A DNA stretch of 64,000 nt from Prochlorococcus sp. MIT 1341 (GCF_034092415.1 NZ_CP139304.1:790001-854000); one strand, 5' to 3'. Counted from the first letter of the stretch, positions 31,776 through 60,522 are shown. The notes: generated by a model from the letters alone, not told the origin. Program-made: numbers and translations.

Positions 31776-32246
<471 letters not shown>

Positions 32247-32316
32247 TTACCTTCTCTTTTAAGAAAAAAGTGATTTTTGGGAGTGGGAGGATTGATGCCC
32301 AGCTCAATAGAGCTAA

Positions 32317-32865
<549 letters not shown>

Positions 32866-41932: not shown

Positions 41933-42080
41933 GGTTGAACCTCTGAAAGCACTTAAAGAATTGAGAAATCACACCTAGAGCTTTTACAAAGTTATTCCCT
42001 AGAAGCCTCAAAAGCTTTCCTACATACAGCTAATCTGACAAATAACTTTTTGGATATCCTGTTACCTCAATTCCTTGAGA

Positions 42081-43400
42081 ATGAGGAATAATTCCTTAAT
42101 GCCATTAACAAAAACAAAAGCAAACAAGACCTTTTTTTACCTTTGGTTAGCGCAGTTAATATCTAATCTTGGGACTCAAACAACCCTTTATGGAATAGGT
42201 CTATGGCTTTTTTCAAACACCCAACAATTAACTGACTTCGCCTTAGTGGCTTTTGCTGTCCAATTAGCAAGAATAATTGTTTTACCTCTAATAGGAAACC
42301 AAATTTCTGCCTGGCCTAGAAGACAGGTAATGCTCATCTCGAACTGCATTGGAGCTCTATGTACTCTTGGGTTTGCAATGGTGCTTCTTCAAAGTGAAGA
42401 CATCCCTCTTTTGGCACCTCTTCTTCTTCTTCAAGGGCTTGCTGCAATGGCAGAAGCCACATTAATCCTGAGTTTCTCAAGTCTTATTCCTGCTCTAATA
42501 ATCAATAAGCAGTCTCTAATCAAAGCTAACGGCCTTTTCGCAAGCACAGATAGTGTTGTACTTGCAATAGCGCCATTCCTTGGAAGCTGGCTAGCCGGAA
42601 CAATTGGCTTAGAAGGGGTTCTCAGCCTGGATGCTTGCAGTTTTATCCTCGCTTTTATATGCGTTCTTGCCGCACCATGGTCCACTCAACTAAATAATCC
42701 ATCAGGCTTATCAAAACCCTGGAGAGGTCTTCATCTAATTAATCATTGGGAAACAATCAAGGAATTGTGGAGGGCCAGTCCCCTCAGCCAAATTGCTCTG
42801 ACCATTAGTACCTGCGTAGCTTTCTCCTATGCCGCAACCGAAATACTTTTCCCAGCCTGGGTTGCTGTGACCTATGGCCCAAAAAGAATGGCTCTAGTCA
42901 TTCTTGCAGCCATTCTGGGATACCTCCTAGGCCTTCTTGCCTGGCAGACCCAAATAGGAAACTACTGGAAAGGAATATGGCAAAAAATGATTTACATCCA
43001 AGCCTTAATCCTTATGGGGGCAGGATTACAGATTTTTGAGTCAACAACTCTCATCTGGTTTGCAGGTGTTTTCATCTTCAGCGGTGGCATACCTATAGTT
43101 ATGTCTTCAATCCAGCAAATATGGAGTCATATAGCTCTCCCAAAAGACCTCCCACGTTTTTTTGCCATTAGATACGCATTTGAATGGTCAGCAAGATTAA
43201 TTGCTTTCATTACTGTCTCGATAGGGGTAGATCAATTAATTCAACCTGTCCTACTTTCGGCTAATTTGCCTCCCTGGATAAAATTATCTTTAGGCACAGG
43301 AGAGGGAAGAGCTATCGCAGTAGCGCTTGGGGCAATGGGATGGGTACTATTTCTATCCGGAATCAGCCAAAAAAAGAACTTGCGTTCAACTTTTAGGTAA
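42081..43400 (+). CDS. MFS transporter at head of PKS cluster
   Basis: 439 residues from ATG 42081 (a TTG at 42075 and an ATG at 42102 are alternatives). About 12 membrane helices; the first loop pair shows LAQLISNLGTQTTLYGIGLWLF and ISAWPRRQVMLISN, the MFS-3/enterobactin-exporter-like pattern. Ends 15 bp before the GT28-like gene. Most likely exports or flips the cluster product or an intermediate; drug-efflux-like substrates cannot be ruled out. Confidence 0.85.
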   Translation: MRNNSLMPLTKTKANKTFFYLWLAQLISNLGTQTTLYGIGLWLFSNTQQLTDFALVAFAVQLARIIVLPLIGNQISAWPRRQVMLISNCIGALCTLGFAMVLLQSEDIPLLAPLLLLQGLAAMAEATLILSFSSLIPALIINKQSLIKANGLFASTDSVVLAIAPFLGSWLAGTIGLEGVLSLDACSFILAFICVLAAPWSTQLNNPSGLSKPWRGLHLINHWETIKELWRASPLSQIALTISTCVAFSYAATEILFPAWVAVTYGPKRMALVILAAILGYLLGLLAWQTQIGNYWKGIWQKMIYIQALILMGAGLQIFESTTLIWFAGVFIFSGGIPIVMSSIQQIWSHIALPKDLPRFFAIRYAFEWSARLIAFITVSIGVDQLIQPVLLSANLPPWIKLSLGTGEGRAIAVALGAMGWVLFLSGISQKKNLRSTFR

Positions 43401-43415
43401 ATCATTCAATCATCT

Positions 43416-44537
43416 ATGCGAGTTCTAATTCTTACTTCAAGTGGAGGTACTGCACATGACGCGGCAGCCTATTCAATAAAAAATTGGTTATTGAAGTGGG
43501 ACCCTGATGGCTCAGCATCTGTGGAGCATTTACTTGAAAAAGCAAGCCTCGTTATGAGAGCAAGCGTAAATCTCTACAACTGGATTCAAAAACACTGGCC
43601 ATGGCTTCATAAAATTTATTGGCGATTGGTGGAATTCGAAGATCTCGTAAAACCTTCCACCGTTTTGTTTGGCAGAAGCTATTTCATACGCTTACTAAAA
43701 CATTTTCGCCCAGAAGTCATTATTTCAACCCATCCACATATAAATCGAGGTCACTTTGATCTCGCAAAGAGAATTCTTGGAGAGTCATTGAGATGTATAA
43801 CATGTTGCACTGAACTGGATGGCGGCTTCGGTTTCAGTAGGAACTGGGTATCCCAAAGAACCGACAGCTTCTGGGCATTGACACAAGAGGTCAAAAGCGA
43901 AGTGATACATCGAGGCATCTCGCCCAATCGAGTAGAAGTATTAGGTCCATTATTTGACCCTGCTTTTGAGTCAGTATTAGAACAATCAACTAATAAATCT
44001 GCCAAGGAAAACCCTCTACCCCTAATCGTTCTCGGGGCCGGAGCAAATGGATCTAACAACCACTTGCATTTACTAAATGCACTTCTTCCTCTTTCTGGTC
44101 GAATTCGCATAGTTGCATTATGTGGGAAACGAAAAAGTTCCAAAAAAAGAATTGATGCTTGGCATTCTGTTCACCCAGAGATTGCAGTTGAAGCTGTTGA
44201 CTTTCAGAGTCCAGAACAGATGGCAATTCTCTACAAAAAAGCTTGGGTCATGGTCGCTAGGCCAGGCGCTAGAACTGCCACTGAAGCTATAGCCTCAGGA
44301 TGTGTACTGATCTTCAACGGGTTTGGAAGCACCATGCCTCAGGAGTTACTTGCAAGGTATTACTTCTCGTCTAGAGGTATAGACATTTCCATCAATAAAC
44401 CTGAAGATCTAATGGGAATACTTAGTCAATGGCTCGAAGACCCCAAACAGCATAGGCTTATTGAAGAAACCTACAACTGCAACCAACTAAAAGGAAACCT
44501 TGATGGCATTAAAAAGTTGATACTGGGGATGGCTTGA
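43416..44537 (+). CDS. MGDG-synthase/MurG-like glycosyltransferase (GT28)
   Basis: 373 residues. The N-terminal half has the MGDG-synthase pattern (VLILTSSGGTAHDAAAYSIKNWL, then FRPEVIISTHPHINRG near 103). The C-terminal half holds the UDP-sugar site VLGAGANGSNNHL near 207 and ARPGARTATEAIASGCVLIFNGFGSTMPQE near 285. This family moves a hexose from a UDP-sugar to a lipid hydroxyl at the membrane face. The TGA stop overlaps the PKS start by one base (TGATG), so it is translated together with the PKS. Its acceptor is probably the PKS-derived alcohol or a lipid carrying it (inference). Confidence 0.85.
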   Translation: MRVLILTSSGGTAHDAAAYSIKNWLLKWDPDGSASVEHLLEKASLVMRASVNLYNWIQKHWPWLHKIYWRLVEFEDLVKPSTVLFGRSYFIRLLKHFRPEVIISTHPHINRGHFDLAKRILGESLRCITCCTELDGGFGFSRNWVSQRTDSFWALTQEVKSEVIHRGISPNRVEVLGPLFDPAFESVLEQSTNKSAKENPLPLIVLGAGANGSNNHLHLLNALLPLSGRIRIVALCGKRKSSKKRIDAWHSVHPEIAVEAVDFQSPEQMAILYKKAWVMVARPGARTATEAIASGCVLIFNGFGSTMPQELLARYYFSSRGIDISINKPEDLMGILSQWLEDPKQHRLIEETYNCNQLKGNLDGIKKLILGMA

Positions 44538-47500
44538 TGCCTTTGCAAGATCCCATCGCAATAATTGGCATTGGATGCAACCTTCCTGGTGGGATCCAAT
44601 CACCAGATCAATTCTGGGAAGTCCTTCGTGATGGGAAGGATGCAATTAGACAAATCCCTAATGAAAGATGGGATCTTGACTTTCACTTCAACCCAGACCC
44701 CAAAAAACCTCTTACCCAGCATGTGCGAAAGGGTGGTTTCATTGAGGATATCGATCTGTTTGACCCAGGTTTTTTTGGAATCACACCAAGGGAAGCCATA
44801 TGCATGGACCCTCAGCAACGCCTTTTGCTCGAAGTGTCCTGGCGTTCTATTGAGGATGCTGGTGTCCCAATCGACAAAATTAGAGGGCAATCTGTTGGAG
44901 TATTTGTTGGCATCTCAAGTGCTGACTACAGCTCCCTACTTTGGGCTTCCAGTGAGGACTATCTCACTCCTGACAATGAACCCTTTATTCTTCCAGGTAA
45001 CACAGGATGTATTGCTGCCAACAGGCTTTCCTATTTTTTAGATCTAAAAGGACCAAGCTTCACAGTTGATACTGCTTGTTCCTCTTCTTTAGTTGCAGTG
45101 CATCTAGCCTGTGAGAGTCTCCAAAAAGGCGAATCAGAACTAGCAATTGCTGGCGGAGTCCAAGCACTTCTCCATCCAGGAATACAAATGAGTTTTTGTA
45201 AGGCAGGCTTACTCTCCCCTGAGGGCCGATGCAAAAGCTTTGATTCTGAAGCAAATGGATATGTTCGCTCTGAAGGAGCAGGAGTAGTGCTCTTAAAACC
45301 TCTAAAAACTGCTTTAAGAGATGGTGATCAGATTCATGCTTTGATTGAAGGTACCGCAATCAACTCAGATGGACGCAGTCAGGGCCTAGCCGCACCAAGC
45401 CAACGTTCTCAATCTAATTGTGTTCGCAAGGCCTACGAAAGTGCGGGTTTAGCACCAAATCAAACCCAATATGTTGAAGCCCATGGGACGGGGACACGTC
45501 AAGGCGACCCTATTGAGCTAAGAGCTTTAGGTAGCGTTCTAAGGGAAGGTAGACCTAATAACCAACCATGTCGAATAGGCTCAGTCAAAACAAACCTTGG
45601 TCATGGCGAAACTGCTGCAGGAATAACAGGTCTTATCAAAACCGTACTTTGTTTAAAAGAAAGGAAAATACCCGCGAGCTTACATTTTCACAAACCAAAC
45701 CCCTCTATAGATTTTGAAAAACTTGGTTTAAAAGTTCAAACTAAGCTTGAATCATTTCCGAATCCTAAAAGCAAATTAATCGCAGGAGTGAGCTCCTTTG
45801 GGTTTGGGGGAACAAATGCTCATGCGGTTTTAAGTGAATCCCCTAAAACAAAAAATTTACTAATAAATAACCACGATGAAAAGGTAGAGCCCCCAATATA
45901 TTTCCTCTGCATTTCTGCAAGAACAACTAAAGCGCTTGAGATTCTGAGAAAAGAATATGTTTTTCTCTTAAAGAATAACCCTTTATTAAGTATCAATGAC
46001 GTCGCGGCAAGCACACATCTTGGGAGAAGTATGTTCCCTCATAGATTGATCGCAATAGGAACAAATCGAGATGAGTTAGTTTCTCAACTTGAACTTCAAG
46101 AAGAGCCAGCCTGGAATGGAGAAACGTCACTTGTAAGCTCTAGTACAAGCAAAAGCAATGAACCTCTTGAAAAAATAACTCTTGGCTTATCTGGTGAAGA
46201 AGGGAAAAAGAAGCTCAAAAAATTAGCCCTGGAAATTGGAAAAGGTGAAAAATTTGACTGGAAAATCTTTCACCATCCATTCCCTCACAAACGCGTGAAT
46301 GTTCCTGGTCATCCATTCATAAAACAACGTTATTGGTGGAATAAACCAGAAAATGAAAAGAGCAAATCAAGTCTTTGGCTGGATCATATAGGTAAAACAA
46401 ATAAAAAGGCATCAAGTGTAAATAAGGAACGAATCTTACAATTTGAACAACTTGAACTCCCTGGCTCATCTGAACATTTCCATGCAGAATTAAATCCTAT
46501 CGAGATCTTAGATTTAGGCGACCATTTAGTTCGTGATTGGGTGGTTTTCCCTGCTGCAGGATATATTGCATTGGCACTTGATCTAAAACGAGAAAGGAAT
46601 CAAGAGTCTTTTCTTTCTGATTTTGTTTTAGATACTCCCCTTAGAATTCAAGACAAATCCAGCACCTTACAGGCTGTATTAGAAGGAGGTAAAATGAGCT
46701 TTTACAGTAAAGATTTAGGGAAGAAAACATGGCTAAAACATGGCGAACTAATTCTTAAAGATAGAGGGAATCAAAGATTTAATAATATTGTTCTGCAAGA
46801 CAAGGTGGCTAATTCTTTTTCGGACATTGAATCTATTTCCACAAAATCTTTCTATGAAAGCTTGTCCACCATTGGTCTTAACTATGGAAAACTTTATCAG
46901 CCAATCAAATCGCTACGCTCCAGGCCTTATCAAGCATGGGTAGAAATAGAAAGGCCAAATAGTGCTCCAGACAGATGCCTAATAGATGGCTGTTTTCAAG
47001 CAGTTGCAGCTTGTTTAGATGTTAGAGAAACAAATGGTCAATTATTTCTTCCAGTTGGTCTGAAAAATCTTGAGTTCACAGAATGGCCTTTACCAGACAA
47101 GTTCAATTGCAATATCTTATTGCATCCACCCCAGGACCACAATTCAACAATAATAGCTGATTTAGAATTAGAGAAAGAAGGTAAATGCATCGGCAAACTA
47201 GTTGGTCTAAAGCTAAGAAGACTAACCCGATCAGTGCTAGACCTTCTATTCCCAAAGAAAGAGTCCTCAAAAATCAAGCCAAGTTTATTACACTCTAAAT
47301 GGTCACCAATAAGCATTCAAAAAGACAAAAAGCCAACATTCAACAATAATCAGATAATTGTAATTGGACCAGATAAGTCTCGAATTGAAAATTTAAATTG
47401 TTGGGCCAATGTTGAAGACCTATCCCTCAATAGAATACCTCTTAGAGCTGAATTATCACAGGTTCATACACCCCTTATCTTATGGCCAAGAATCACAAAA

Positions 47501-50500
47501 GAAAATCCAGAGAATTTGCTGAATATACTCTTAAAAGTTTTTAAATCCCTATCAAATGATCACCAAGAGCCTATTTTACTTGTTTTAGAAGGTGATTCCC
47601 CAACAACAAGTTCCCTAAAAGCTTTCCAACGCTCCGTGATGCTTGAACGCCCAGACTGGAAATTGACAACCTTGCATCTACCCTCTGAATTAGATCAACA
47701 TCCAAAACCTGAAGACTGGGGAGAAATCTTCTTAGCAAGCGAAAAATTTTCCGAAATCTCTTACTTAAATGGCGTCCTAAATAGCCCACATTTAGAAGTA
47801 GTAGAAAATGAGAGGTTCCAAATAAGAACTGATGGGACTGGGCGTTTAGAAGGTCTACATCGCAAGGCAATGCCTCCCACAGAACTATTGCCAGGTGAAG
47901 TTGAAATAGCTGTTGAAGCGACTGGCCTTAACTTTCGAGATGTACTCAATTCCCTAGGATTACTAAAGGATCATGCAGCTTCGCTTGGAATAGACGACCA
48001 AACCCGTTTGCCATTTGGAGGGGAAGCTGTTGGGAAGATAGTGGATATTGGCCCTAATTTATCCAGCGAACTTATTGGGCAAAGAGTTGTTGCAGCCCTA
48101 ACAATTGGCAGCCTCGCGAGTCATGTCATTTCAAGAGAAGAGCTTTGCATACCTATGCCCCCAGGCATGAGTGCAGAAGAAGGAGCAAGCTTTTCAACTG
48201 CTTTTCTGACAGCTGCATATGGCCTAGAAAAGCTTGCAAAATTAGAACCCAACCAAACCGTTCTTATACATTCCGCGGCGGGAGGGGTCGGTCAAGCAGC
48301 AATGCAAATAGCAAAACGTTCCGGAGCAAAAATTTTTGCCACCGCCTCTGCTGGCAAGCAAAACCTAATCAAGGAACAAGGCGTAGAAGGAGTATTTGAT
48401 TCAAGAACTCTAGATTTTGCTGATCAGATTTTGGATTGCACTAATGGTGTTGGCGTAGATGTAGTACTTAATAGTCTTAAAGGAGAATGGGTTGATGCCA
48501 GTTTCAAGTGCCTAAAAAAGGGAGGAAAGTTCTTAGAACTTGGCAAGATTGATATCTGGAGCGATGCACAAGCAAAGGAGAAAAGACCAGACGCCAAATA
48601 TCTTCCTTTTGATTTACTGGAAGTTGCTACCGCTGAACCATTGAAGATAAGAAGTCTTCTTCTCAGAATTAGCAAAGAAATATCTACTGGTTCGTTGCAA
48701 AATATACCATCTAAAGCTTGGCATATAAATGAATTCAAAGATGCTTTCAAGCACATGGCTCAAGCAAGGCATATAGGTAAGGTTGTAATCAAACAACCGA
48801 TACAACCTGAACAAATTTCCATCAAAGAAAATGCAACCTATTTAATAACTGGTGCTTTAGGCGGCATTGGGTTGAAACTTCTTAAATGGGTTACATCCCA
48901 GGGAGCAAAATCATTAATTTTAGTTGGTCGTTCATTTAAAGACCCTAAAGAAGATGCTCAGAGAGTGTTAAAAGAGCTGAGGGGTAAAGGGGTTAAATAT
49001 ACTTGCATCGCTTATGACCTTTCAGAAACAAAAAATTCTACAACTTCTCAAGAACTTAAAAGGACGATCAATCTCCTCCCTAATACTAAACCTTTACGTG
49101 GCATTTTTCATACCGCAGGCCTACTCCGCGATGGTCTTCTATCAACGATTGATGAGGATTGTATTAAATCAACTATGGATCCAAAACTTCAAGGATGGAA
49201 ATTATTTGAAAGCCTAATAAAGAAAGAGTCTGATTTAGATTTTATTATTGGGTTCTCTTCTATAGCAGCTTTACTTGGTTCCCCAGGGCAAGCAGCATAT
49301 GCAGCCGCAAATGGTGCCATAGAAGGATATTGCAAAAGAGAGTCTTCATCTCCAATCAGACTTGCAATCCAATGGGGACCTTGGTCAAACACAGGGATGG
49401 CAAAGGGGTTAGAAAGTCGTTTTGAAAAAATAGGTATGAAAATGATTGCCCCAGAAGATGCTTTTGAGTCACTAAATAGACTTCTAAAAAGAGGAGAAGG
49501 AGGGGTGATCTCTGTCGCAGATAATGACTGGCAAATGCTTGCATCTCAAGCATTACCAAGGCAAAAAGATTGGTTTAATGACTTGCTTGAAAAGATCGGG
49601 CCATCACCTTCTGAGCGCCTTTGGAAGAAGTTGAAAGCACTGCCAAAATCTCAGCATCAATTGATTCTAATGCAGGAGTTACGAGAAAGATTGGCAAGAG
49701 TAATGGCAGCAGAATCTGATTCGGAAGATTTACTAGAGGCCTCTTCTATTGATTCAAGTGAATCTCTCTTTAACCTTGGGCTTGATTCATTAATGGCAGT
49801 TGAATATGCAGCTGTAGTTCAAACAGAACTTGGGATTCGACTTGATCTTGAAGCTCTTGCAGATGACCCCACCCTTGATGCACTTGCCGAACTTGGGCTC
49901 AAACAATTAACACCTAAACAGGGTCAATCCCATAATGAATCTTTAAATCTTGAGCAGGAGGCAAAGCTAGATAAAGACTGGTCCTGCCCTTCTCTAAATC
50001 CAAGTCTTTGTCCCGGCAACTCAATATTCCTAACAGGGGCATCTGGCTTCCTGGGTGCATACTTATTAGCAGGACAACTTAAACGTTGGGAGGATCTCAA
50101 TGTACGCTGTCTGGTAAGAGCAAAGACCGTTGAAATTGCTCTTGAGAGAATAAAGAAAAACTTATATTTTTATGGTCTCTGGGAACCAAGTTGGGAGAGG
50201 AGAATAAAACCAATACTTGGTGATTTATCACTCTCAAGATTTGGGCTTGAAGAAGAACATTTCAAAAAATTATCAAATAAAATTGGAGGAATCCTTCATA
50301 ACGGTGCGCAACTTAGTCAAATGGCACCTTATGCGCAGTTGACAGCTGCCAATGTAGGAGGAACCCGAGAAATATTAAACCTAGCGACTATCTCTAACCC
50401 TATTCGCTTAGAGCATGTTTCGAGTGTTTCTGTTTTCGAAGGAGCTGCCTATAGAAATCGTGAAATAGATGAGTGTGACGACCTTAACTGCTGCGAGGGC

Positions 50501-51121
50501 ATTCATATTGGTTATTCACAAACTAAATGGGTTAGCGAGAGGCTTGTAACTCAGGCAGGTCGACTTGGATTACCAATAAGCATTTACCGTCCACCATTAA
50601 TAGGGGGACATTCCATCACCGGTCACTGGCATGAAGGGGATCTTCTGCAAAGACTTTTACAAGGTTGCTTAGCATTAGGACAAGCTCCTCAGCTTGCTTG
50701 GGAATTGGATCTTGTCCCTGTCGATTACGTTGCTGACTCCATAAGTGCTCTTGCTTGGAATAAAGAAACTGCCGGGAATTGTTTTCACCTACAACATCCA
50801 CGTCCTTTAATGCTCAATGATCTTTTGACAAAGCTCATATCGGACGGCGCACCTTTACAGCAAGTGCCTATGAAGGAATGGCTTCAGGCAATTTCAGAGG
50901 ATACGAACAATCCGCTTAATCCTCTTAAGGCTTTCTTCCAACAACGCTGGGGGCCAGAACAACTCACATATCCGGAGTTAAATGCATTGGGCGTAAGAGC
51001 TCGCCCAAGTTGCAAACTAACCATCTCCGCCTTAGAGAAGAAAAATATCCACTGCCCAGATTTTGAAGACCTTATTGATACTTGGGCTGCCTCACTTCTG
51101 AAAAGTTCAGTAGCAGCTTGA
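44537..51121 (+). CDS. type I polyketide synthase KS-DH-ER-KR-ACP-TR, no AT
   Basis: 2194 residues. Ketosynthase ~5-435 with the intact triad Cys-181 (DTACSSS), His-316 (EAHGTGT) and His-356 (NLGHGE). A KS-to-AT linker (ISARTTKALEILRKEY...GRSMFPHRL) spans ~455-505 and a post-AT linker (FDWKIFHHPFPHKRVNVPGHPFIKQRYWW) ~573-601. The ~300-residue acyltransferase that should lie between them is absent. Dehydratase ~645-900 has His-663 and Asp-817 (DGCFQ). A structural KR half ~905-1085 follows. Enoylreductase ~1095-1430 has HSAAGGVGQAA at 1245-1255. Ketoreductase ~1433-1680 has TGALGGIG at 1438-1445 and Tyr-1588/Asn-1592. ACP carries Ser-1751 in LGLDSL. C-terminal thioester reductase ~1828-2194 has TGASGFLG near 1833 and Tyr-1993/Lys-1997. 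It should build a fully reduced chain and release it as aldehyde or alcohol. The missing AT must be supplied in trans. ATG 44537 is preferred over a TTG three bases earlier. Confidence 0.95.
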   Translation: MPLQDPIAIIGIGCNLPGGIQSPDQFWEVLRDGKDAIRQIPNERWDLDFHFNPDPKKPLTQHVRKGGFIEDIDLFDPGFFGITPREAICMDPQQRLLLEVSWRSIEDAGVPIDKIRGQSVGVFVGISSADYSSLLWASSEDYLTPDNEPFILPGNTGCIAANRLSYFLDLKGPSFTVDTACSSSLVAVHLACESLQKGESELAIAGGVQALLHPGIQMSFCKAGLLSPEGRCKSFDSEANGYVRSEGAGVVLLKPLKTALRDGDQIHALIEGTAINSDGRSQGLAAPSQRSQSNCVRKAYESAGLAPNQTQYVEAHGTGTRQGDPIELRALGSVLREGRPNNQPCRIGSVKTNLGHGETAAGITGLIKTVLCLKERKIPASLHFHKPNPSIDFEKLGLKVQTKLESFPNPKSKLIAGVSSFGFGGTNAHAVLSESPKTKNLLINNHDEKVEPPIYFLCISARTTKALEILRKEYVFLLKNNPLLSINDVAASTHLGRSMFPHRLIAIGTNRDELVSQLELQEEPAWNGETSLVSSSTSKSNEPLEKITLGLSGEEGKKKLKKLALEIGKGEKFDWKIFHHPFPHKRVNVPGHPFIKQRYWWNKPENEKSKSSLWLDHIGKTNKKASSVNKERILQFEQLELPGSSEHFHAELNPIEILDLGDHLVRDWVVFPAAGYIALALDLKRERNQESFLSDFVLDTPLRIQDKSSTLQAVLEGGKMSFYSKDLGKKTWLKHGELILKDRGNQRFNNIVLQDKVANSFSDIESISTKSFYESLSTIGLNYGKLYQPIKSLRSRPYQAWVEIERPNSAPDRCLIDGCFQAVAACLDVRETNGQLFLPVGLKNLEFTEWPLPDKFNCNILLHPPQDHNSTIIADLELEKEGKCIGKLVGLKLRRLTRSVLDLLFPKKESSKIKPSLLHSKWSPISIQKDKKPTFNNNQIIVIGPDKSRIENLNCWANVEDLSLNRIPLRAELSQVHTPLILWPRITKENPENLLNILLKVFKSLSNDHQEPILLVLEGDSPTTSSLKAFQRSVMLERPDWKLTTLHLPSELDQHPKPEDWGEIFLASEKFSEISYLNGVLNSPHLEVVENERFQIRTDGTGRLEGLHRKAMPPTELLPGEVEIAVEATGLNFRDVLNSLGLLKDHAASLGIDDQTRLPFGGEAVGKIVDIGPNLSSELIGQRVVAALTIGSLASHVISREELCIPMPPGMSAEEGASFSTAFLTAAYGLEKLAKLEPNQTVLIHSAAGGVGQAAMQIAKRSGAKIFATASAGKQNLIKEQGVEGVFDSRTLDFADQILDCTNGVGVDVVLNSLKGEWVDASFKCLKKGGKFLELGKIDIWSDAQAKEKRPDAKYLPFDLLEVATAEPLKIRSLLLRISKEISTGSLQNIPSKAWHINEFKDAFKHMAQARHIGKVVIKQPIQPEQISIKENATYLITGALGGIGLKLLKWVTSQGAKSLILVGRSFKDPKEDAQRVLKELRGKGVKYTCIAYDLSETKNSTTSQELKRTINLLPNTKPLRGIFHTAGLLRDGLLSTIDEDCIKSTMDPKLQGWKLFESLIKKESDLDFIIGFSSIAALLGSPGQAAYAAANGAIEGYCKRESSSPIRLAIQWGPWSNTGMAKGLESRFEKIGMKMIAPEDAFESLNRLLKRGEGGVISVADNDWQMLASQALPRQKDWFNDLLEKIGPSPSERLWKKLKALPKSQHQLILMQELRERLARVMAAESDSEDLLEASSIDSSESLFNLGLDSLMAVEYAAVVQTELGIRLDLEALADDPTLDALAELGLKQLTPKQGQSHNESLNLEQEAKLDKDWSCPSLNPSLCPGNSIFLTGASGFLGAYLLAGQLKRWEDLNVRCLVRAKTVEIALERIKKNLYFYGLWEPSWERRIKPILGDLSLSRFGLEEEHFKKLSNKIGGILHNGAQLSQMAPYAQLTAANVGGTREILNLATISNPIRLEHVSSVSVFEGAAYRNREIDECDDLNCCEGIHIGYSQTKWVSERLVTQAGRLGLPISIYRPPLIGGHSITGHWHEGDLLQRLLQGCLALGQAPQLAWELDLVPVDYVADSISALAWNKETAGNCFHLQHPRPLMLNDLLTKLISDGAPLQQVPMKEWLQAISEDTNNPLNPLKAFFQQRWGPEQLTYPELNALGVRARPSCKLTISALEKKNIHCPDFEDLIDTWAASLLKSSVAA

Positions 51122-52299
51122 CACTCAGGGATCTTCTACCACTACTTTTTGCTGTGGTTATTGCCACTCAAGTCATTTTAGTGGCATTTTTCAAATTCAA
51201 AATCAAACAACTGCAAAGAGGGAAAACTTTTCGCGCGGGAGAACCTTATCAACTATGGCCAGAAGTTGAAGTTGTTTTGTGCTTACGAGGAGCAGATAAG
51301 ACACTTCCTGGAATGCTCAATTCTCTTTCTAAGCAAAACTATCCCGGGCTATGGCGCCTAAAAATTGTAGTGGACTCTGCATCAGACCATGCATGGGCAA
51401 TCGTTCAAGAAATGATTGATTCTGAAGGTAAAAACAACCAAAAAACTTCTTCATGGGCTGAAGCAATTGTTGAAGTTCTCGAAGAAAAGGAAACAAAAGG
51501 TTCCCTCAAATGTGCATCTATTAGGCAAGCTTTTAAAGGACTTCACCCTAATTCAAAGGTGGTTGCATTAGTCGATTCAGATGCAGTTGTACCGTCAGAT
51601 TGGCTAAAAACATTAGTTTATGAATGCTGCCAGGAAAATATTGGAGCTGTATCTGGAAACAGATGGTACGAGCCGACTAGAAATACACTTTCTGCGTGCA
51701 CTAGAAAAGTTTGGAATGCAGGAGCCCTGGTAATGATGACAATTTTTAAAATCCCCTGGGGAGGCTCACTTGCTGTAAAAAGAGAATTAATCAATTCTGA
51801 TCTTTGGGTAAACCTTCTTGAAAGCTCTCTCTGTGAAGACACATGCCTACACAAACCACTCAAAGAACTAAACTTAGAATATAGGTTTATCCCCGAACTT
51901 TTAATTATTGACCGTAGTTATGACATAACTATGCCAGGATTAGCGAAATGGCTTTCTCGTCAGGTTCTCACAGTACGTCTTCATCACCCTGCATGGCCAC
52001 TTATCATGATTCATGGCCTTGGAACAACATTAGTACTTGTTTTAGGGTTATTTTCCGGGACATGGTTTTCATTGATAGTATATGAATTATCTTGCCTTTT
52101 ATTGTTAGGCTGGATTGAAGTAATAGCCAGAAATAAAACGCCTAAATCTACAAGAAATTTTGCTTTTTCACTTATAGCGGGACAATTAATCAATGGCTGG
52201 TCAACTTTAATGGCTCTTGTTGCAAAAGAAGTAGAGTGGCGTGGAATTAATTACAAGATAACCCTAAACCCTAAAGGGGTTGAGAGATTGCAGGACTAA
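51118..52299 (+). CDS. membrane glycosyltransferase, GT2/GT21-like
   Basis: 393 residues from a TTG that overlaps the PKS stop (TTGA). A TTG at 51082 would overlap by 40 bases and is less likely. An N-terminal membrane helix (LLPLLFAVVIATQVILVAF) is followed by the GT-A domain: the DxD motif in LVDSDAVVPSDW (Asp-153/155), EDTCLHKPL near 244, and WLSRQVLTVRLHHP near 277. Two or three C-terminal membrane helices follow. This layout resembles ceramide glucosyltransferase and HpnI-type enzymes that glycosylate lipids at the membrane. Coupling to the PKS suggests that it adds a sugar to the PKS product. Its 3' end overlaps the SRPBCC gene on the other strand by 29 bases. Confidence 0.85.
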   Translation: MTLRDLLPLLFAVVIATQVILVAFFKFKIKQLQRGKTFRAGEPYQLWPEVEVVLCLRGADKTLPGMLNSLSKQNYPGLWRLKIVVDSASDHAWAIVQEMIDSEGKNNQKTSSWAEAIVEVLEEKETKGSLKCASIRQAFKGLHPNSKVVALVDSDAVVPSDWLKTLVYECCQENIGAVSGNRWYEPTRNTLSACTRKVWNAGALVMMTIFKIPWGGSLAVKRELINSDLWVNLLESSLCEDTCLHKPLKELNLEYRFIPELLIIDRSYDITMPGLAKWLSRQVLTVRLHHPAWPLIMIHGLGTTLVLVLGLFSGTWFSLIVYELSCLLLLGWIEVIARNKTPKSTRNFAFSLIAGQLINGWSTLMALVAKEVEWRGINYKITLNPKGVERLQD

Positions 52300-52837
52300 C
52301 CATTAACTCATATAGAATTTTCATAGACTGATTCAAGTTTGTTTCGCTAAGCTCACGAAAAACAGGTTTAAAAACTTCTGGAATCTCTGGGTCAATATCA
52401 ATACTATGGCTCACCATTGTCCCTCCATCAATAGGCTTCAATTTCCATTTACCTCTCAGTGATCGAATAAGATCCCCCTTCAATAATTTATATTCAATCA
52501 TTTTTTTTGGGGTTTCTTTAACATGAATCAAAGCTGAAATCTCCAAACCAAAAGTGTAGGGTGCTTGATAAGTCTGAGATAATCTAAGGGAGTGTCCATT
52601 CCGAAAAATAATTTTCACCTTTTTGATATCTGGCATTTGTATTGCTGTGCTTTCATAACCTGTCAAAACCTCCCATGCTCTATTAAGTTCAACAGGAACG
52701 GTGATTGTGGAGGTTGTCACTCCTGAGAGTCTTGTTAACTCAGGCTGGTTACTTTGACTTTGTGCAAAAACTAAGCCGATCGGAGCGGACACACCTACTA
52801 TCAGACCTAATAAAACAGCTCTACTTGATTTCCCCAT
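52271..52837 (-). CDS. secreted SRPBCC-fold (polyketide cyclase/START-like) protein
   Basis: 188 residues from ATG 52837 (MGKSSRAVLLGLIVG), which gives a clean signal peptide ending near VFAQS. An upstream ATG at 52873 would add 12 residues and overlap the divergent gene. The mature part fits the SRPBCC / polyketide_cyc pattern: STITVPVELNRAWEVLTGYESTAIQMPDIKKVKIIFRN, then beta strands and a long C-terminal helix ending ESNLNQSM-like. Members bind hydrophobic ligands in a deep pocket. Its position within the cluster suggests binding or carrying the lipid product across the periplasm (inference). Opposite strand, so separately transcribed. Confidence 0.75.
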   Translation of the reverse strand: MGKSSRAVLLGLIVGVSAPIGLVFAQSQSNQPELTRLSGVTTSTITVPVELNRAWEVLTGYESTAIQMPDIKKVKIIFRNGHSLRLSQTYQAPYTFGLEISALIHVKETPKKMIEYKLLKGDLIRSLRGKWKLKPIDGGTMVSHSIDIDPEIPEVFKPVFRELSETNLNQSMKILYELMVSPAISQPL

Positions 52838-52843
52838 TCGACA

Positions 52844-54046
52844 TTGCTTGTGCAGGAATCTAGTACTAACCATGATGGAAGGAGAGTTGAATTAAAGCGC
52901 ACAAGGGAAAACTGTGCGTCACTTCCTTGCTCTAGAACTTATTTCGTTAGTGGGTTTGACCCAAGAGGTGCAAACCACTATCTAGCTCTATTTCAAAAGG
53001 AGCTACAAGCTAGAGGGGCTAGTACTGGTAAAAGAATAACCAATGGGCTAATAACTCGCTGGCCGATAAAGAAAAAAACAGGAAACGAGAAAACCCAAGA
53101 AGTTGAAACGCTCCACCAATCAGAACTTTGTTTCCTCCACTGGGACGATATAGCAAGAGCAAACTGGCCTAAACAACCCTTAGAAATCCTTAAGCAGTGC
53201 ATGTCATATGCGTCTTTTTACCTCTTCAGAGGATGGGTTTTTCGAATAGCCAAATTGTGCCCTGGTGTAGCTTTATGTGGAGCCTACCCATTACTTTTCT
53301 TACTTATTGCATTGTGTTTTGCCACAATTACAGCAACCCTCTCAATAGAACTATTTGAAATATTTTCCATTCCAGCAGGGAAATACTTAATAAGTTTAAC
53401 TTTGTGGTTTTCAACCCTTTTCGCAGCATGGAAACTGGCAGAAGCACTTGGTGTGATTTGGCTCACAAGATCAATCCTATTCACCCACCGCCTGGGCCAA
53501 GCCAAGGAAAAAGATTTACGCCAAAGGGTATGCGACCTAGCAGTTCTATTAATCAACCTCGAAGAAAAAGAACCTGCAGAACGTATTATTATTATTGGAC
53601 ATAGTAGCGGTAGTTTTGTTGCTGCAATGCTCGCCGCTGAATTAAAAAGACAAGACAATTCGGCTAACTTACTTTCTCGAATAGAATTACTAACACTTGG
53701 GCAAAACTTGACAAATTTATCTATATATCCAGAGGCAAAATCTTTCCGAGATGACCTCAAATTTTTAGCAGAACAGCCAAGGTTTCCATGGAGGGATGTC
53801 ACATCCCAAGAAGACTTACTATGTTTCGCAGGGGTGAACCCTTTTATAACCTGCGGGATTGCCATACCAAAAGGCAGCCTATATCCAAAAATGGAAATTA
53901 TCTCACTAAGTCTTCCAAGAAAAGGTCGAAAGCAAAAAAGAATTTTGCTTGATCAGTTTGACATACATTTTGATTACCTTCGTAATCATTGCCCTGACGT
54001 TGATTTACCTGGATTACTTACTAAGCCTTTATCAAGGGAATACTAA
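52844..54046 (+). CDS. membrane-associated alpha/beta hydrolase
   Basis: 400 residues if TTG 52844 is used; GTG 52850 is equally possible and no ribosome binding site decides. The conserved part begins YFVSGFDPRGANHYLALFQKEL. Two adjacent hydrophobic helices occur near 150-215 (YPLLFLLIALCFATITATL and LISLTLWFSTLFAAWKLAEAL). The nucleophile elbow GHSSGSFVAAML is near 255, and DQFDIHFDYL near the C terminus may supply the catalytic His. It looks like a membrane-bound lipase or acyltransferase-like hydrolase. Likely role: acyl transfer or ester cleavage on the lipid product (inference). The stop overlaps the P450 start (TAATG). Confidence 0.7.
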   Translation: MLVQESSTNHDGRRVELKRTRENCASLPCSRTYFVSGFDPRGANHYLALFQKELQARGASTGKRITNGLITRWPIKKKTGNEKTQEVETLHQSELCFLHWDDIARANWPKQPLEILKQCMSYASFYLFRGWVFRIAKLCPGVALCGAYPLLFLLIALCFATITATLSIELFEIFSIPAGKYLISLTLWFSTLFAAWKLAEALGVIWLTRSILFTHRLGQAKEKDLRQRVCDLAVLLINLEEKEPAERIIIIGHSSGSFVAAMLAAELKRQDNSANLLSRIELLTLGQNLTNLSIYPEAKSFRDDLKFLAEQPRFPWRDVTSQEDLLCFAGVNPFITCGIAIPKGSLYPKMEIISLSLPRKGRKQKRILLDQFDIHFDYLRNHCPDVDLPGLLTKPLSREY

Positions 54047-55472: not shown

Positions 55473-57551
55473 TTAAAAGACGATACTAACCTTAGTCCCA
55501 AGTCTTAAATCATCAGATCTAATCATTTGTCCAATGTCTAGCATCCCCGCTGCATTACTAATATAAAAATCTACATATGTTGTATCTGGCCTAGCAAGCC
55601 ATCGCAAAGCAAGTGTCATGTTAGTCGCTTCTCGGTGAGAACCAACCAAGTTAATTTCAGGAATCAACTGAAAACTATTACCTAGTTGCATGTTTGCACT
55701 AAGGCCTACACCCCAAGGGTCACTGACTCCACTGATTACAGCCTTGGGGTTTACATTCACTGCTAGCCAAGAATTTACCTCGTAAGTATTTATAGATTCT
55801 GCAAAAATATATCCTTGATAACTCTTTGCGTCATTATTACGCCCCAAACTTATACGTCCAGAGGTCCAAATTGGGGCCCCTCTCAAAGGACTTAATGCCA
55901 CTGCCTTTCCACCAACTCGCCAATGCAAACCATCGTCAGTGGTGTAATTACGTTCCAAACTTGACGAAGGCTCTCCGCCAACACTATCAACCTGACTAAA
56001 TAGACCAGCCTTGTATAGATCTAATTGAAAGATATTAGAAATCGAATAAGATAAAGATCCAAAAATATTTCCTCTGTTATCCAGGTTCCCCCATAATTGA
56101 GTAGTGCCATCGGGCGGAACTAGTGCAGTATTAACAGTCAAGCCTCCTGAAGCAAGTGAATGTTGACGTTTAGTCAGAGGCAACTGAGGAGTATCAGGTG
56201 CACCACTGTTATATACAAACTTAGCCGAATAACCTAACTGGTTGGAAGAAGGGAGAGCAAGTAAAGATGTTGCAGGTGTGGCCCCCCAGCCATTAGTTAA
56301 AGCGCCCTCAAGTGCAATCCGAGGGTTTAAATTCCAAGTTAATCCACCTGTGAAAATAGGAACTCTTTCAAAATTCAAGTTTTTATCAAAGCTATTATTA
56401 CCTGGCCCTAGAGACAATAAGGTAGAAGTAAATAGCTCTATCTCTGGAATAGGCTTCCAAAACAAACCTCCTGAAACCCAATAATTATTTCCATAGAAAT
56501 CACCAGCACCTCCCTGGCCTGAGCCCTGTTTCTCAGGGAGAAAACTTACGCCTGGAGAAAAAGTCAGTTGGGAAGTTGAGGAGGTATTCCAACTGATAGG
56601 CAAGGCTATAGAGCCAATGACATTTCTTGTAAAAACTCTTTGACCTGAATCATTAAAGATATTTGGAGAAGCATCATTATTACCCTTACATAAGGCTGAA
56701 TCACATCCACCACTTCCAACATTCCAACCTTCGATTGATGCAGCTAATGCAAGATTCCAATATTTCCCAGGAGCGTCCTGATATAAGCCATAAGGATCGC
56801 TAGCCAACCTAAATTTAAACTCAGCACCAAAGCTCTCCCAAAAATTTCCTGGCTGAGAACTTAGTGATTCTATTTTCGCGAAAAGTGGGTCATCAGCTTG
56901 TGATGCAAATCCAGAGAGTTGAAGCCTATCAGTGATCCCAAAGTCAAACTGTATTGAATAATTCTGATTACCGGTTCCACCAGACTCACCAGGCATAAAA
57001 GGCGATATTTGATAAGCATTTAATCTGATGTCAGATTCAAATACTTGATTTGCAGTAGGAACAGCATTCCCAATTCTTAATGGCAATTGATAATCTTCCG
57101 GACGTGGCTCTAGCTGATTAAAAACAGCTTGCGCTTCTCCATAATTATTAGGGATTTTTAGTTCTCCAAAGTACTCTTTAATCTCCTTTTCCTTGTCAGG
57201 GAGTTCTTGATCTTCGATAACATCCCAAACCACAGGGGCGTTACCTGGATATTTATCCTCAGGAATATTTTCCCAAATTACAGGTTGACTGGAACTATTA
57301 TTTTTGCTGGCCGGGAAAGTCTCCCAGGTTAAATTAGATTTCTTCTTAAAAGTTTGAATAGGTCCAACTTGAGGTGAAATTTGTATTTCTTTAGGACTAG
57401 ATTCTTGGAAGGACTTAAGAGTTCCTGAAGTCTCTTGACCTATTTGGAGCCCATCCCAAACTATCTCAGCATGACTAGCGGATATTGGGACTATTTGCAT
57501 AAATAAAGTCCCACTAAGAAATTTTATCATCGAACTAATTCTTAGCATCAA
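55473..57551 (-). CDS. predicted outer-membrane beta-barrel protein
   Basis: 692 residues with an N-terminal signal (MIKFLSGTLFMQIVPISASHA). Residues ~30-130 carry four spaced copies of a short W-motif (VWDGLQ, TWETFP, IWENIP, VWDVIE), then a segment RIGNAVPTANQVFESDIRLNAYQISPFMPGE. The remainder alternates short amphipathic strands and Gly/Ser/Asn turns (QYSIQFDFGITDRLQLSGFAS). It ends in Phe (TKVSIVF), the usual OMP C-terminal signature. Likely a channel or export barrel for surface polysaccharide or lipid given the Wza/Wzz neighbours; 103 bp separates it from the Wzz-like gene upstream. Ligand unknown. Confidence 0.75.
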   Translation of the reverse strand: MMLRISSMIKFLSGTLFMQIVPISASHAEIVWDGLQIGQETSGTLKSFQESSPKEIQISPQVGPIQTFKKKSNLTWETFPASKNNSSSQPVIWENIPEDKYPGNAPVVWDVIEDQELPDKEKEIKEYFGELKIPNNYGEAQAVFNQLEPRPEDYQLPLRIGNAVPTANQVFESDIRLNAYQISPFMPGESGGTGNQNYSIQFDFGITDRLQLSGFASQADDPLFAKIESLSSQPGNFWESFGAEFKFRLASDPYGLYQDAPGKYWNLALAASIEGWNVGSGGCDSALCKGNNDASPNIFNDSGQRVFTRNVIGSIALPISWNTSSTSQLTFSPGVSFLPEKQGSGQGGAGDFYGNNYWVSGGLFWKPIPEIELFTSTLLSLGPGNNSFDKNLNFERVPIFTGGLTWNLNPRIALEGALTNGWGATPATSLLALPSSNQLGYSAKFVYNSGAPDTPQLPLTKRQHSLASGGLTVNTALVPPDGTTQLWGNLDNRGNIFGSLSYSISNIFQLDLYKAGLFSQVDSVGGEPSSSLERNYTTDDGLHWRVGGKAVALSPLRGAPIWTSGRISLGRNNDAKSYQGYIFAESINTYEVNSWLAVNVNPKAVISGVSDPWGVGLSANMQLGNSFQLIPEINLVGSHREATNMTLALRWLARPDTTYVDFYISNAAGMLDIGQMIRSDDLRLGTKVSIVF

Positions 57552-57654: not shown

Positions 57655-59331
57655 TTAGATATAAGGATCTATTAACAGCCAGCCAGCTAATAAGGGCTTC
57701 TGAAGCAAAATCTGATTTGCTATTCTTTCTAGGTTTACGTAGGTAATAGCTCCAGGGCTGGTTACAAGAATTTGTGTTGAACAGCCAGCCAGGTCAAACA
57801 TATCTCCAGAGATTAATAACTCCCTGCCTCCAAGACCATCCTTAATGCACTTACTGAGCAGCTTTAGGTAACCAGAATCCACATCTCCAACATATAACAA
57901 ACCAACCTTTCCTTTTTCAGATGAAGAAAACAGTCCTTGCAAAATCAACGCAATAGATCCCTTCCATGAAGAAGTGTCTGATACAGGCAATCTTTGCAAA
58001 AGCTTTCCAGGGATTCTTTTCTCAATATCACCTATAAGATAGATCTTGCCTTCAAATGCCTCTTTGATAAAAAGCAATAGCGAGCCAACTAATAAGCCTA
58101 TACCGAATCCAATTAGAGCAATATCTTTTTTAACTGGAGAAATTGGCATCTCATCAACCAAAGTAGGCACAGAAATTAATTGCCATGGTTGAGAGGAGCG
58201 AGCTTGCTCAAGGCTGAGAGAGTGAAGCATACTCTCTAAAGAATTAAGTGTATTTTGATATCGTTTTGTCCTACGTTTTAGTTCTTTATAATCAAGCATA
58301 ATAGTTTGTGCTTCCTCTTTACTTCTAGGTTGATAAGTTGGCGAAGCGAGCGATCCACCTGCACTAAGTGCGATGTAATCACTAATTGCTTTCCTTTCTC
58401 TAATAAGTGTTTTAATGCTTGGATCATTTTCTGTGAAAATCCTCTTTCTTCTTAGAAGTTCCCTATTGATTTTTGCCAGATCAACTATTGGATTATTTGT
58501 AGCTTTAATTGAAGAAGTTGCTCCAGATGATGCGCCAGAAATGCCCTCTATGCCTGACTTCAGGGAAAACATGGCTTGTCCACCATTTTGCCTATCTTGG
58601 AAAAGTGCGGTTTGACTTTCTTGTTCATTCCATTTATCAGATGAACGTATTCCATGAAGTAACTCAAAATTATCAAGCACACGGTTTGATGCATTTGATT
58701 TATCTTTAAAGATTTTAATCTGGCTTCTTGCATATGCAATACCATTGGACAATGACTCTGAGCGATCTTTATTTGAATAAGCCTGATAAGCATCTTTCAT
58801 TCTATTTAGTACTGGTATAATTAATCTTTTTTCAGTATCTCTATACTTGATGGTTAGAGCCTTTGTTTTAGATATTTGCTTAACAGTCACATTATTTGAA
58901 AGCCATGGTTTAAATGTCGGCATTTTGCCAGAGCTTGGCAAAGAATCTTTCAGTTCAGAAGCAAATTCATAAACCGGTCTCAAAACTGAAGGACTTCTTA
59001 GAATTACTAGATCTGTTTTCAAAGTAGAACCTAAATCAGGTTCAGCAATACCAGCAATACTTGCAAGACTATTCATCATCTGTGCTTGAGCCATAGGGTT
59101 ATTAAACCCACCGGAAGATCTCCCTTTACGAGAGACAACAATCTGAAAACTTCCTTCCCACCGTGGAGGCAAAGTATAAGCATATACAACACTTATAGAG
59201 CTAGAGATTAAAGTAATTAACCCAATTGCAAACTTTCTTCTACGGAAAAAGTTAACGACATCAACAAAATTAATGCCGCCTTCCTCGCTTACATTAGGAT
59301 TGTATACATTTTTGGAGTTAACGTCAGTCAT
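57655..59331 (-). CDS. Wzz/Wzc-like polysaccharide co-polymerase without kinase
   Basis: 558 residues. Starts with FVDVVNFFRRRKFAIGLITLISSSISVVYAYTLPP, the first membrane helix of the Wzz family. Long periplasmic coiled-coil part from ~100 to 400 with EAQTIMLDYKELKRRTKRYQNTLNSLESML; then PISPVKKDIALIGFGIGLLVGSLLLFI, the second helix. The C-terminal ~140 residues resemble a degenerate BY-kinase fold lacking a Walker A motif. It sets chain length of, or couples synthesis to export for, surface polysaccharide. Starts 9 bp after the Wza-like gene, the same operon. Confidence 0.87.
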   Translation of the reverse strand: MTDVNSKNVYNPNVSEEGGINFVDVVNFFRRRKFAIGLITLISSSISVVYAYTLPPRWEGSFQIVVSRKGRSSGGFNNPMAQAQMMNSLASIAGIAEPDLGSTLKTDLVILRSPSVLRPVYEFASELKDSLPSSGKMPTFKPWLSNNVTVKQISKTKALTIKYRDTEKRLIIPVLNRMKDAYQAYSNKDRSESLSNGIAYARSQIKIFKDKSNASNRVLDNFELLHGIRSSDKWNEQESQTALFQDRQNGGQAMFSLKSGIEGISGASSGATSSIKATNNPIVDLAKINRELLRRKRIFTENDPSIKTLIRERKAISDYIALSAGGSLASPTYQPRSKEEAQTIMLDYKELKRRTKRYQNTLNSLESMLHSLSLEQARSSQPWQLISVPTLVDEMPISPVKKDIALIGFGIGLLVGSLLLFIKEAFEGKIYLIGDIEKRIPGKLLQRLPVSDTSSWKGSIALILQGLFSSSEKGKVGLLYVGDVDSGYLKLLSKCIKDGLGGRELLISGDMFDLAGCSTQILVTSPGAITYVNLERIANQILLQKPLLAGWLLIDPYI

Positions 59332-59340
59332 TTAATGCCT

Positions 59341-60522
59341 CTAAAATGCTTTGTCGATAAGTTGATACAATGAATACACACCAACAAATGGACTAGAAAC
59401 CTCCTTAATAATCTCCATTGAACTGGTAAAGATAGAGTCTTTAACACGAACAATATCCCCCGGCATAAGCAAAGGATTTCTATAATCTGAAACTGCTGCC
59501 GAAGGTTTAAAGGTAAATAATCTTCTGTCCACTTCACCACCCTTAGTAAACCTAACAAACTCAACCTTTCCACGCAAAAGCTTAGGGGATGCCGCTAATA
59601 ATGCCTTGTTAAGACTAGAGCCCTGAGGGAGTGTGATTGCACCTGGGGACTCAACACGACCGCTAACAAATACACGGAAAAATTGTGGGCTTAAATTAGT
59701 CTGACTTGCATTTAAAAGCTGTTCTCTTAGCACCACATTACTCTTTTTGACTTCTACATAATCACCATCAAAAAGTCTAAGGTTTTGTGATTCATCCCCA
59801 TCGGTAATCAAAGTCAAGAAATCGACTTGGGTACGCTTGCGCCCGCCACCTTCTTCAACAGGACGCTTACGCGTAACCTGTACTTTTGACAAGTCTGAAT
59901 AAGGCGTAATTCCCTGTCCGACTCTGATCGCATCAAAAACAGTAGGAAAGACACTAATTGATGTTTGCACAGCGTCTGATATATCTTTTCCAGTCATGGC
60001 TTGAGGATTAATATCGCCAAGTGTTGTAGTCCTGTTTATCTGACCACCATCAGCACTAATACTCCCTAGGGTGTTTCCCTTAAGGGTGTAATAACCTGGT
60101 CTATTAACTTCACCACCAACATATATCCTTATCGGTCGATATTCTGCTATGAATATATACATCTCTGGGTCTTTTACAAACCTCTTATAATTACTAACCA
60201 AGAGTTGTACAAGGCCATTAATGGTTAATCCATCAACCTTAACTGCTCTAAGCCTAGGAAGATATATCGACCCATCTAAACCTACTTTGAAAAACCCAGA
60301 CAGTTCAGGTATATCAATCATCTCTATAAAGAGAACGTCTCCTGGCCCAACAATATAAGAGCTTTGCGACTTATCTTTTAAAATTGTCTTGTTCCCAAGA
60401 GCTGCAACAGATGTAGGGTAACTAACTGAAGTTTCTGCTTTTGCTAAAAATACCGGACTACAAACTAGGGCAGTTACACTCGCAGCAAAAATCTGCCTGC
60501 AAATAGTCTTTACCCTTTTCAT
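59341..60522 (-). CDS. polysaccharide export protein, Wza-like
   Basis: 393 residues. A signal peptide (FAASVTALVCSPVFLAKAE) is followed by the Poly_export domain (YIVGPGDVLFIEMIDIPELSGFFKVGLDGSIYLPRL near 56-90) and SLBB-like repeats (YRPIRIYVGGEVNRPGYYTL near 128 and FRVFVSGRVESPGAITLPQGSSLNKALLAA near 280). Wza-type proteins form the outer-membrane and periplasmic export channel for capsule or exopolysaccharide. It precedes the Wzz-like gene by 9 bp. Confidence 0.92.
   Translation of the reverse strand: MKRVKTICRQIFAASVTALVCSPVFLAKAETSVSYPTSVAALGNKTILKDKSQSSYIVGPGDVLFIEMIDIPELSGFFKVGLDGSIYLPRLRAVKVDGLTINGLVQLLVSNYKRFVKDPEMYIFIAEYRPIRIYVGGEVNRPGYYTLKGNTLGSISADGGQINRTTTLGDINPQAMTGKDISDAVQTSISVFPTVFDAIRVGQGITPYSDLSKVQVTRKRPVEEGGGRKRTQVDFLTLITDGDESQNLRLFDGDYVEVKKSNVVLREQLLNASQTNLSPQFFRVFVSGRVESPGAITLPQGSSLNKALLAASPKLLRGKVEFVRFTKGGEVDRRLFTFKPSAAVSDYRNPLLMPGDIVRVKDSIFTSSMEIIKEVSSPFVGVYSLYQLIDKAF

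Follow-up and report, generated by a model that had tools for sequence, protein, structure and literature searches.

We analysed a stretch of 64,000 nucleotides from Prochlorococcus sp. MIT 1341 (NZ_CP139304.1:790001-854000; hereafter the window), which contains a gene cluster built around a polyketide synthase (PKS) that lacks an acyltransferase (AT) domain (Table 1). The synthase is encoded by a single open reading frame with an ATG start, directly preceded by an in-frame TTG at position 44534, and its Pfam matches are, in order, KS, KS C-terminal extension, CurL-like linker, DH, ER, KR, ACP and NAD_binding_4, the last of these marking a thioester reductase (TR). The KS triad sits at precisely the residues named in an initial annotation of this DNA, and the DH, ER, KR, ACP and C-terminal TR listed there are likewise present with their catalytic residues. 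A single module with KS, DH, ER, KR and ACP is a trait of iterative cis-AT reducing type I PKSs, which the window PKS shares according to Pfam; the integrated AT, also a trait of this class, is absent from it and present in its AT-bearing orthologues. It does not have the KS and architecture of the PfaA type found in PUFA and heterocyst-glycolipid synthases, as it scored 293 bits against TIGR02813, for which the cut-off is 1010. The order of the eight genes from the MFS exporter to the 692-aa protein is found at most AT-less and many AT-bearing loci.

Table 1. Genes of the PKS cluster and domains of the PKS (positions in the window; residue numbers refer to the PKS).
Feature	Position	Strand	Basis
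MFS exporter, conserved neighbour	42075..43400	+	PF07690; synteny
MGDG-synthase-like glycosyltransferase, stop overlaps PKS start	43416..44537	+	PF06925 5e-12; synteny
AT-less monomodular PKS, 2194 aa, KS-linker-post-AT linker-DH-ER-KR-ACP-TR	44537..51121	+	ORF + Pfam
KS domain, residues ~5-433, Cys181/His316/His356	44549..45835	+	PF00109 6e-92, PF02801 3e-40
KS-AT linker domain, ~440-522, retained	45854..46102	+	PF22621 CurL-like 5e-15; aligns to CurL 484-587
Junction filler, ~523-556, site of relatives' AT	46103..46204	+	Alignment, linker-to-DW interval
Post-AT helix + post-AT linker, ~557-604, LKKLALEIGKGEKFDW...VPGHPFIKQRYWW, retained	46205..46348	+	Aligns to CurL 893-936, after CurL's AT; conserved in all groups
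DH domain, ~634-905, His663/Asp817	46436..47251	+	PF21089, PF14765; residues conserved
ER domain, ~1097-1420	47825..48796	+	PF08240, PF00107, PF13602
KR domain, ~1430-1640, Ser1574/Tyr1588/Asn1592	48824..49456	+	PF08659 2e-42
ACP, ~1715-1795, Ser1751	49679..49921	+	PF00550 2e-10
Thioester reductase, ~1830-2190, Tyr1993/Lys1997	50024..51106	+	TIGR01746 281 bits, above cut-off; PF07993
GT2 glycosyltransferase, HpnI-like; probably starts downstream of TTG 51082	51082..52299	+	PF00535; TIGR03472 1e-16, below cut-off; synteny
START/polyketide-cyclase-like lipid-binding protein	52271..52873	-	PF03364 3e-8; synteny
Alpha/beta-hydrolase-like protein	52844..54046	+	Weak PF01764 2.5e-4, just below cut-off; synteny
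Cytochrome P450	54046..55464	+	PF00067 4e-71; synteny
692-aa protein, outer-membrane beta-barrel look by eye	55473..57551	-	No family above cut-off; conserved PKS neighbour

First, the PKS has no recognisable AT, while the linkers on both sides of the missing domain are kept. PF00698, the AT family of Pfam, gave no match in the whole protein even at E<=1 and none in the linker region searched alone at E<=10, and a profile built from the orthologues' own AT scored below 0 bits on the AT-less proteins versus 260-568 bits on the AT-bearing ones. The earlier claim that the protein contains no acyltransferase is borne out by these searches, none of which uncovered the hidden, divergent AT that had been considered as a counter-explanation. 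The KS-AT linker described in the initial annotation is present, but it does not end at GRSMFPHRL and extends to about residue 520. Similarly, a stretch of ~65 residues had been called low-complexity; its last ~15 residues form a conserved helix, which in relatives comes after the AT, and the poorly conserved filler amounts to ~34 residues. The interval from the end of the KS-AT linker to the conserved DW of the post-AT linker measures 56 aa in 14 of the 18 AT-less proteins and 32-55 aa in the other four, compared with 343-368 aa (about 348) in 23 of 24 AT-bearing orthologues. When aligned with the solved cis-AT synthase CurL, the query matches residues 484-587 and picks up again at 893-936, skipping the AT, whereas its alignment with the trans-AT synthase PksL is unbroken. 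The spacer lengths, the gap against CurL and the unbroken PksL alignment together indicate that the excised piece was the AT domain and that the linkers were kept, which supports a clean removal from between the two. As read from the sequence alignment, the retained linker probably keeps the fold of a linker domain. An AT-less module with both linkers kept is what is seen in trans-AT type I PKSs.

Second, the absence of the AT is not an assembly error, as 17 further genomes share the AT-less protein. These were recovered from 400 genomes of the family, drawn evenly from a larger group (all counts are therefore those of a sample), in which we found 18 AT-less proteins including that of the window; this contradicts a sequencing deletion confined to one assembly, a possibility raised in the initial annotation. 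The AT-less PKS is full length in all 4 genomes of the genus, and Prochlorococcus sp. AG-402-C09 (L006) is one of its carriers; in one draft genome (G088) the gene is cut at a contig end, leaving 17 complete AT-less genes. Phycobilisome genes number 2 in the window's genome and in ten further carriers, which we take to be the Prochlorococcus pattern, and 12-13 in the carriers of group g34, presumably the Synechococcus pattern; the AT-less synthase belongs to Prochlorococcus and marine Synechococcus. The only two phycobilisome-family genes of the window's genome lie in the window itself (31782-32844, minus strand) and are probably the phycoerythrin pair of low-light Prochlorococcus. Orthologues that still carry the AT, for which a search had been suggested, do exist: they were found in other picocyanobacteria with the same gene order, measure 2446-2680 aa and, according to Pfam, contain the AT inside the PKS frame.

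Third, the loss of the AT raises the question of how the ACP is malonylated, and our genome searches point to FabD. The genome of the window (1.94 Mb, one contig, 99.98% complete) encodes one PF00698 protein, FabD (TIGR00128 282 bits, above the curated cut-off), whose gene adjoins fabH; neither Pfam nor the profile of the lost AT revealed a dedicated trans-AT gene, and the free-standing AT-family protein that characterises trans-AT systems is represented here by FabD only. Two KS genes were found, namely the window PKS and a 440-aa FabF-type frame, together with one phosphopantetheinyl transferase. The 16 further AT-less genomes each contain a single AT, located outside the PKS, and the profile of the lost AT retrieved FabD only, in seven AT-less genomes; in the draft G088 FabD was not found. 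Nearly all AT-bearing genomes have an additional, separate AT of FabD size. As no other AT-family protein was found in this genome, FabD is by elimination the best candidate for the loader of the PKS ACP and probably serves as such. FabD loading of an AT-less PKS has been demonstrated (PMC12828459) and indicated for another (PMC13096860). We also considered the charge of the ACP as a sign of adaptation to FabD, but the ACP of AT-less forms is only slightly more acidic than that of AT-bearing relatives and this small difference is unconvincing.

The ACP could alternatively be loaded by an unrecognised acyltransferase outside PF00698 or by slow self-malonylation from malonyl-CoA. The ACP of an AT-less PKS has been found to self-acylate at 25 uM and above (PMC12828459), and our genome searches cover the AT family (PF00698) only; however, the cluster contains no acyltransferase-like gene, and its sole hydrolase-like member is, together with the P450, absent from two AT-less clusters, L043 (G221) and L048 (G300). 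We regard loading by a route other than FabD as unlikely. Loss of the AT would also be tolerable if the ACP needed no malonylation, that is, if the PKS did not elongate with its own malonyl-ACP and instead accepted preformed acyl chains (or malonyl-AcpP) supplied by the type II FAS, mainly to reduce them and release them via the TR, which is well conserved. This is difficult to reconcile with the KS, whose triad does not vary among the 18 AT-less and the 24 AT-bearing proteins and which, with 0.70 identity between Prochlorococcus and Synechococcus, is better conserved than any other domain, and with the DH, ER and KR, whose catalytic residues are kept too, and we consider such a use of the synthase quite improbable. 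Finally, many picocyanobacteria are wholly devoid of the cluster, as might be expected if the gene were decaying after AT loss and made nothing. Yet the reading frames are uninterrupted in 17 divergent genomes, the checked KS, DH, ER, KR, ACP and TR residues are intact in 17 of 17 AT-less proteins with a complete gene, the operon is mostly kept, and dN/dS is 0.12-0.16 for AT-less pairs versus 0.13-0.26 for AT-bearing pairs, most of which the AT-less values resemble. Since the checked residues are kept and dN/dS is low, decay is contradicted by the selection data and highly improbable.

Fourth, our phylogenetic analyses place the AT-less forms within an AT-bearing family. We rooted a KS tree with an outgroup of 24 other cyanobacterial PKSs, of which 22 contain both AT motifs, one contains the first motif only and one, L087, contains neither. 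In this tree, the AT-less proteins form one nested clade (97/95), with several supported AT-bearing branches between this clade and the root. The same AT-less clade was recovered in an ER-TR tree, and the neighbouring glycosyltransferase likewise splits AT-less from AT-bearing loci. As the AT-less forms are a single clade nested in AT-bearing ones, these results support a single AT loss, on the branch leading to the AT-less picocyanobacteria. The view put forward in the initial annotation, that this is a formerly cis-AT enzyme which lost its AT cleanly, is in line with the syntenic AT-bearing orthologues, the exact position of the gap and the rooted KS tree. The window KS groups among cis-AT cyanobacterial KSs rather than with a trans-AT KS clade; this tree held no trans-AT KS, but among solved structures the KS block matched CurL (cis-AT) with 508 bits versus 419 bits for PksL (trans-AT). 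The Brevibacillus protein 7zma (774 bits, PDB) was rejected as a close trans-AT relative, because its score sums two KS domains (taken separately, 412 bits for chain 7zmc and 371 bits for chain 7zm9), which makes CurL the best single-module solved relative. The reverse course of events, in which the ancestor was a trans-AT PKS and an AT was inserted in other lineages, would fit the end-to-end alignment of the KS-linker block with solved trans-AT KSs, but is virtually negligible in view of the AT-bearing branches that part the root from the AT-less clade and of the better match to CurL.

We consider it likely that the common ancestor of the AT-less picocyanobacteria lost the AT in a single clean excision between the two linkers, and that the synthase now works iteratively with malonyl units supplied in trans. 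FabD, the malonyl-CoA:ACP transacylase of fatty-acid synthesis, would malonylate the PKS ACP, the lone KS would condense repeatedly, the KR, DH and ER would reduce every unit to methylene, and the thioester reductase would free the chain as an aldehyde or alcohol. We infer iteration because the synthase has a single module, which is the sole module of the genome. The P450, the exporter and both glycosyltransferases probably act on this chain, and the product is perhaps a long-chain alcohol that has been glycosylated and hydroxylated. Neither the P450 nor the hydrolase appears to be essential to the core, since the clusters of G221 and G300 lack both. In most lineages the gene for the 692-aa protein neighbours the PKS, also in clusters with a two-gene PKS, where no GT2, START or hydrolase gene was found; the protein may export or anchor the product. 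If this is true, a specialised lipid of abundant ocean phototrophs is tied to the FabD pool of fatty-acid synthesis. In three related AT-less clusters (L044-L046), a local rearrangement has placed the glycosyltransferase before the MFS gene, with a few hundred bases between the MFS gene and the PKS. Genes for a Wzz-like chain-length protein and a polysaccharide export protein with SLBB domains, indicative of capsule or exopolysaccharide export, adjoin the cluster (57655-60522, minus strand).

The origin of trans-AT PKSs from cis-AT ones is debated. Like the trans-AT PKSs PksJ and PksL of bacillaene and the Brevibacillus 7zma protein, the window PKS has an AT-less module that keeps KS, linker domain and post-AT linker, but it differs from them in that its KS is of the cis-AT cyanobacterial kind, it is one module rather than a multimodular assembly line (the other KS of the genome being the FabF-type frame), and its genome has FabD but no dedicated trans-AT gene. 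By architecture it is trans-AT-like; by the ancestry of its KS, as judged from sequence, and by its single module it stands outside the classical trans-AT family and is a cis-AT-derived monomodular synthase. For PipC of pseudotetraivprolide (PMC12828459) and BrnF of barnesin (PMC13096860), the cluster is similarly AT-less and the FabD of the genome is the only candidate or the demonstrated loader; however, both are modules attached to NRPSs, whereas the window PKS is stand-alone, fully reducing and equipped with a thioester reductase. Trans loading and repeated use, as we propose here, are also known from the iterative trans-AT PKSs of chejuenolide and epifadin; such systems are called very rare, with chejuenolide named as the only one before epifadin, which uses three modules together with a discrete AT dedicated to them, where the window has one module and FabD as a candidate (PMC11310079). 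The AT-bearing picocyanobacterial orthologues have the same cluster and gene order and differ by carrying the AT. The cluster itself is probably CF-20, a PKS family described in 2014 as uncharacterised, widespread in marine and freshwater picocyanobacteria and conserved in gene order (PMC4247773); we matched the two by description, and the main-text passages on CF-20 make no mention of AT loss. Our search of the open-access literature brought up no account of an AT having been lost from this cluster. The initial annotation's statement that no system like this had been described in Prochlorococcus is nevertheless too strong, as the cluster is likely CF-20 and FabD-served and iterative trans-AT PKSs are known (PMC4247773, PMC12828459, PMC13096860, PMC11310079). 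The novelty is a single-module, fully reducing PKS that stands between the cis- and trans-AT states. A displacement of the AT from cis to trans has also been proposed for algal type I PKSs, with little evidence for the iterative trans-AT intermediate that it requires and that was called missing (PMC4661987). The algal trans-AT forms are multimodular; the window PKS looks like this missing iterative intermediate, in bacteria.

Moreover, AT-less KS proteins are not confined to this cluster. An independent AT-less monomodular PKS of 2239 aa (L087/L106; KS-DH-ER-KR-ACP) occurs in another cyanobacterial family, where it ends in a class I/II aminotransferase-type domain (PF00155, aminotransferase/oxoamine-synthase-type) and, at L106:7879-14598 (genome G643), adjoins a P450 and an SDR. 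Its KS is placed among AT-bearing KSs in the rooted tree, and the sole AT-family protein of its genome is a stand-alone frame of 298 aa. We think it somewhat more probable than otherwise that one-module, fully reducing cis-AT synthases have repeatedly been converted in nature into FabD-dependent iterative trans-AT ones, that the two states survive within a single gene family and cluster, and that this represents the intermediate reported missing. The change from cis to trans is directly testable here because orthologues with and without the AT share the cluster in related genomes, and the extent of the removed AT, with the linkers left in place, should be useful for PKS engineering. A third AT-less KS type of about 1640 aa, with the order KS-KR-ACP-TR (L065:2338-7284, with similar reading frames in L064, L066-L070 and L072), directly adjoins KS-AT-DH-ER-KR-ACP partners of about 2150 aa; either the partner or FabD may load it.
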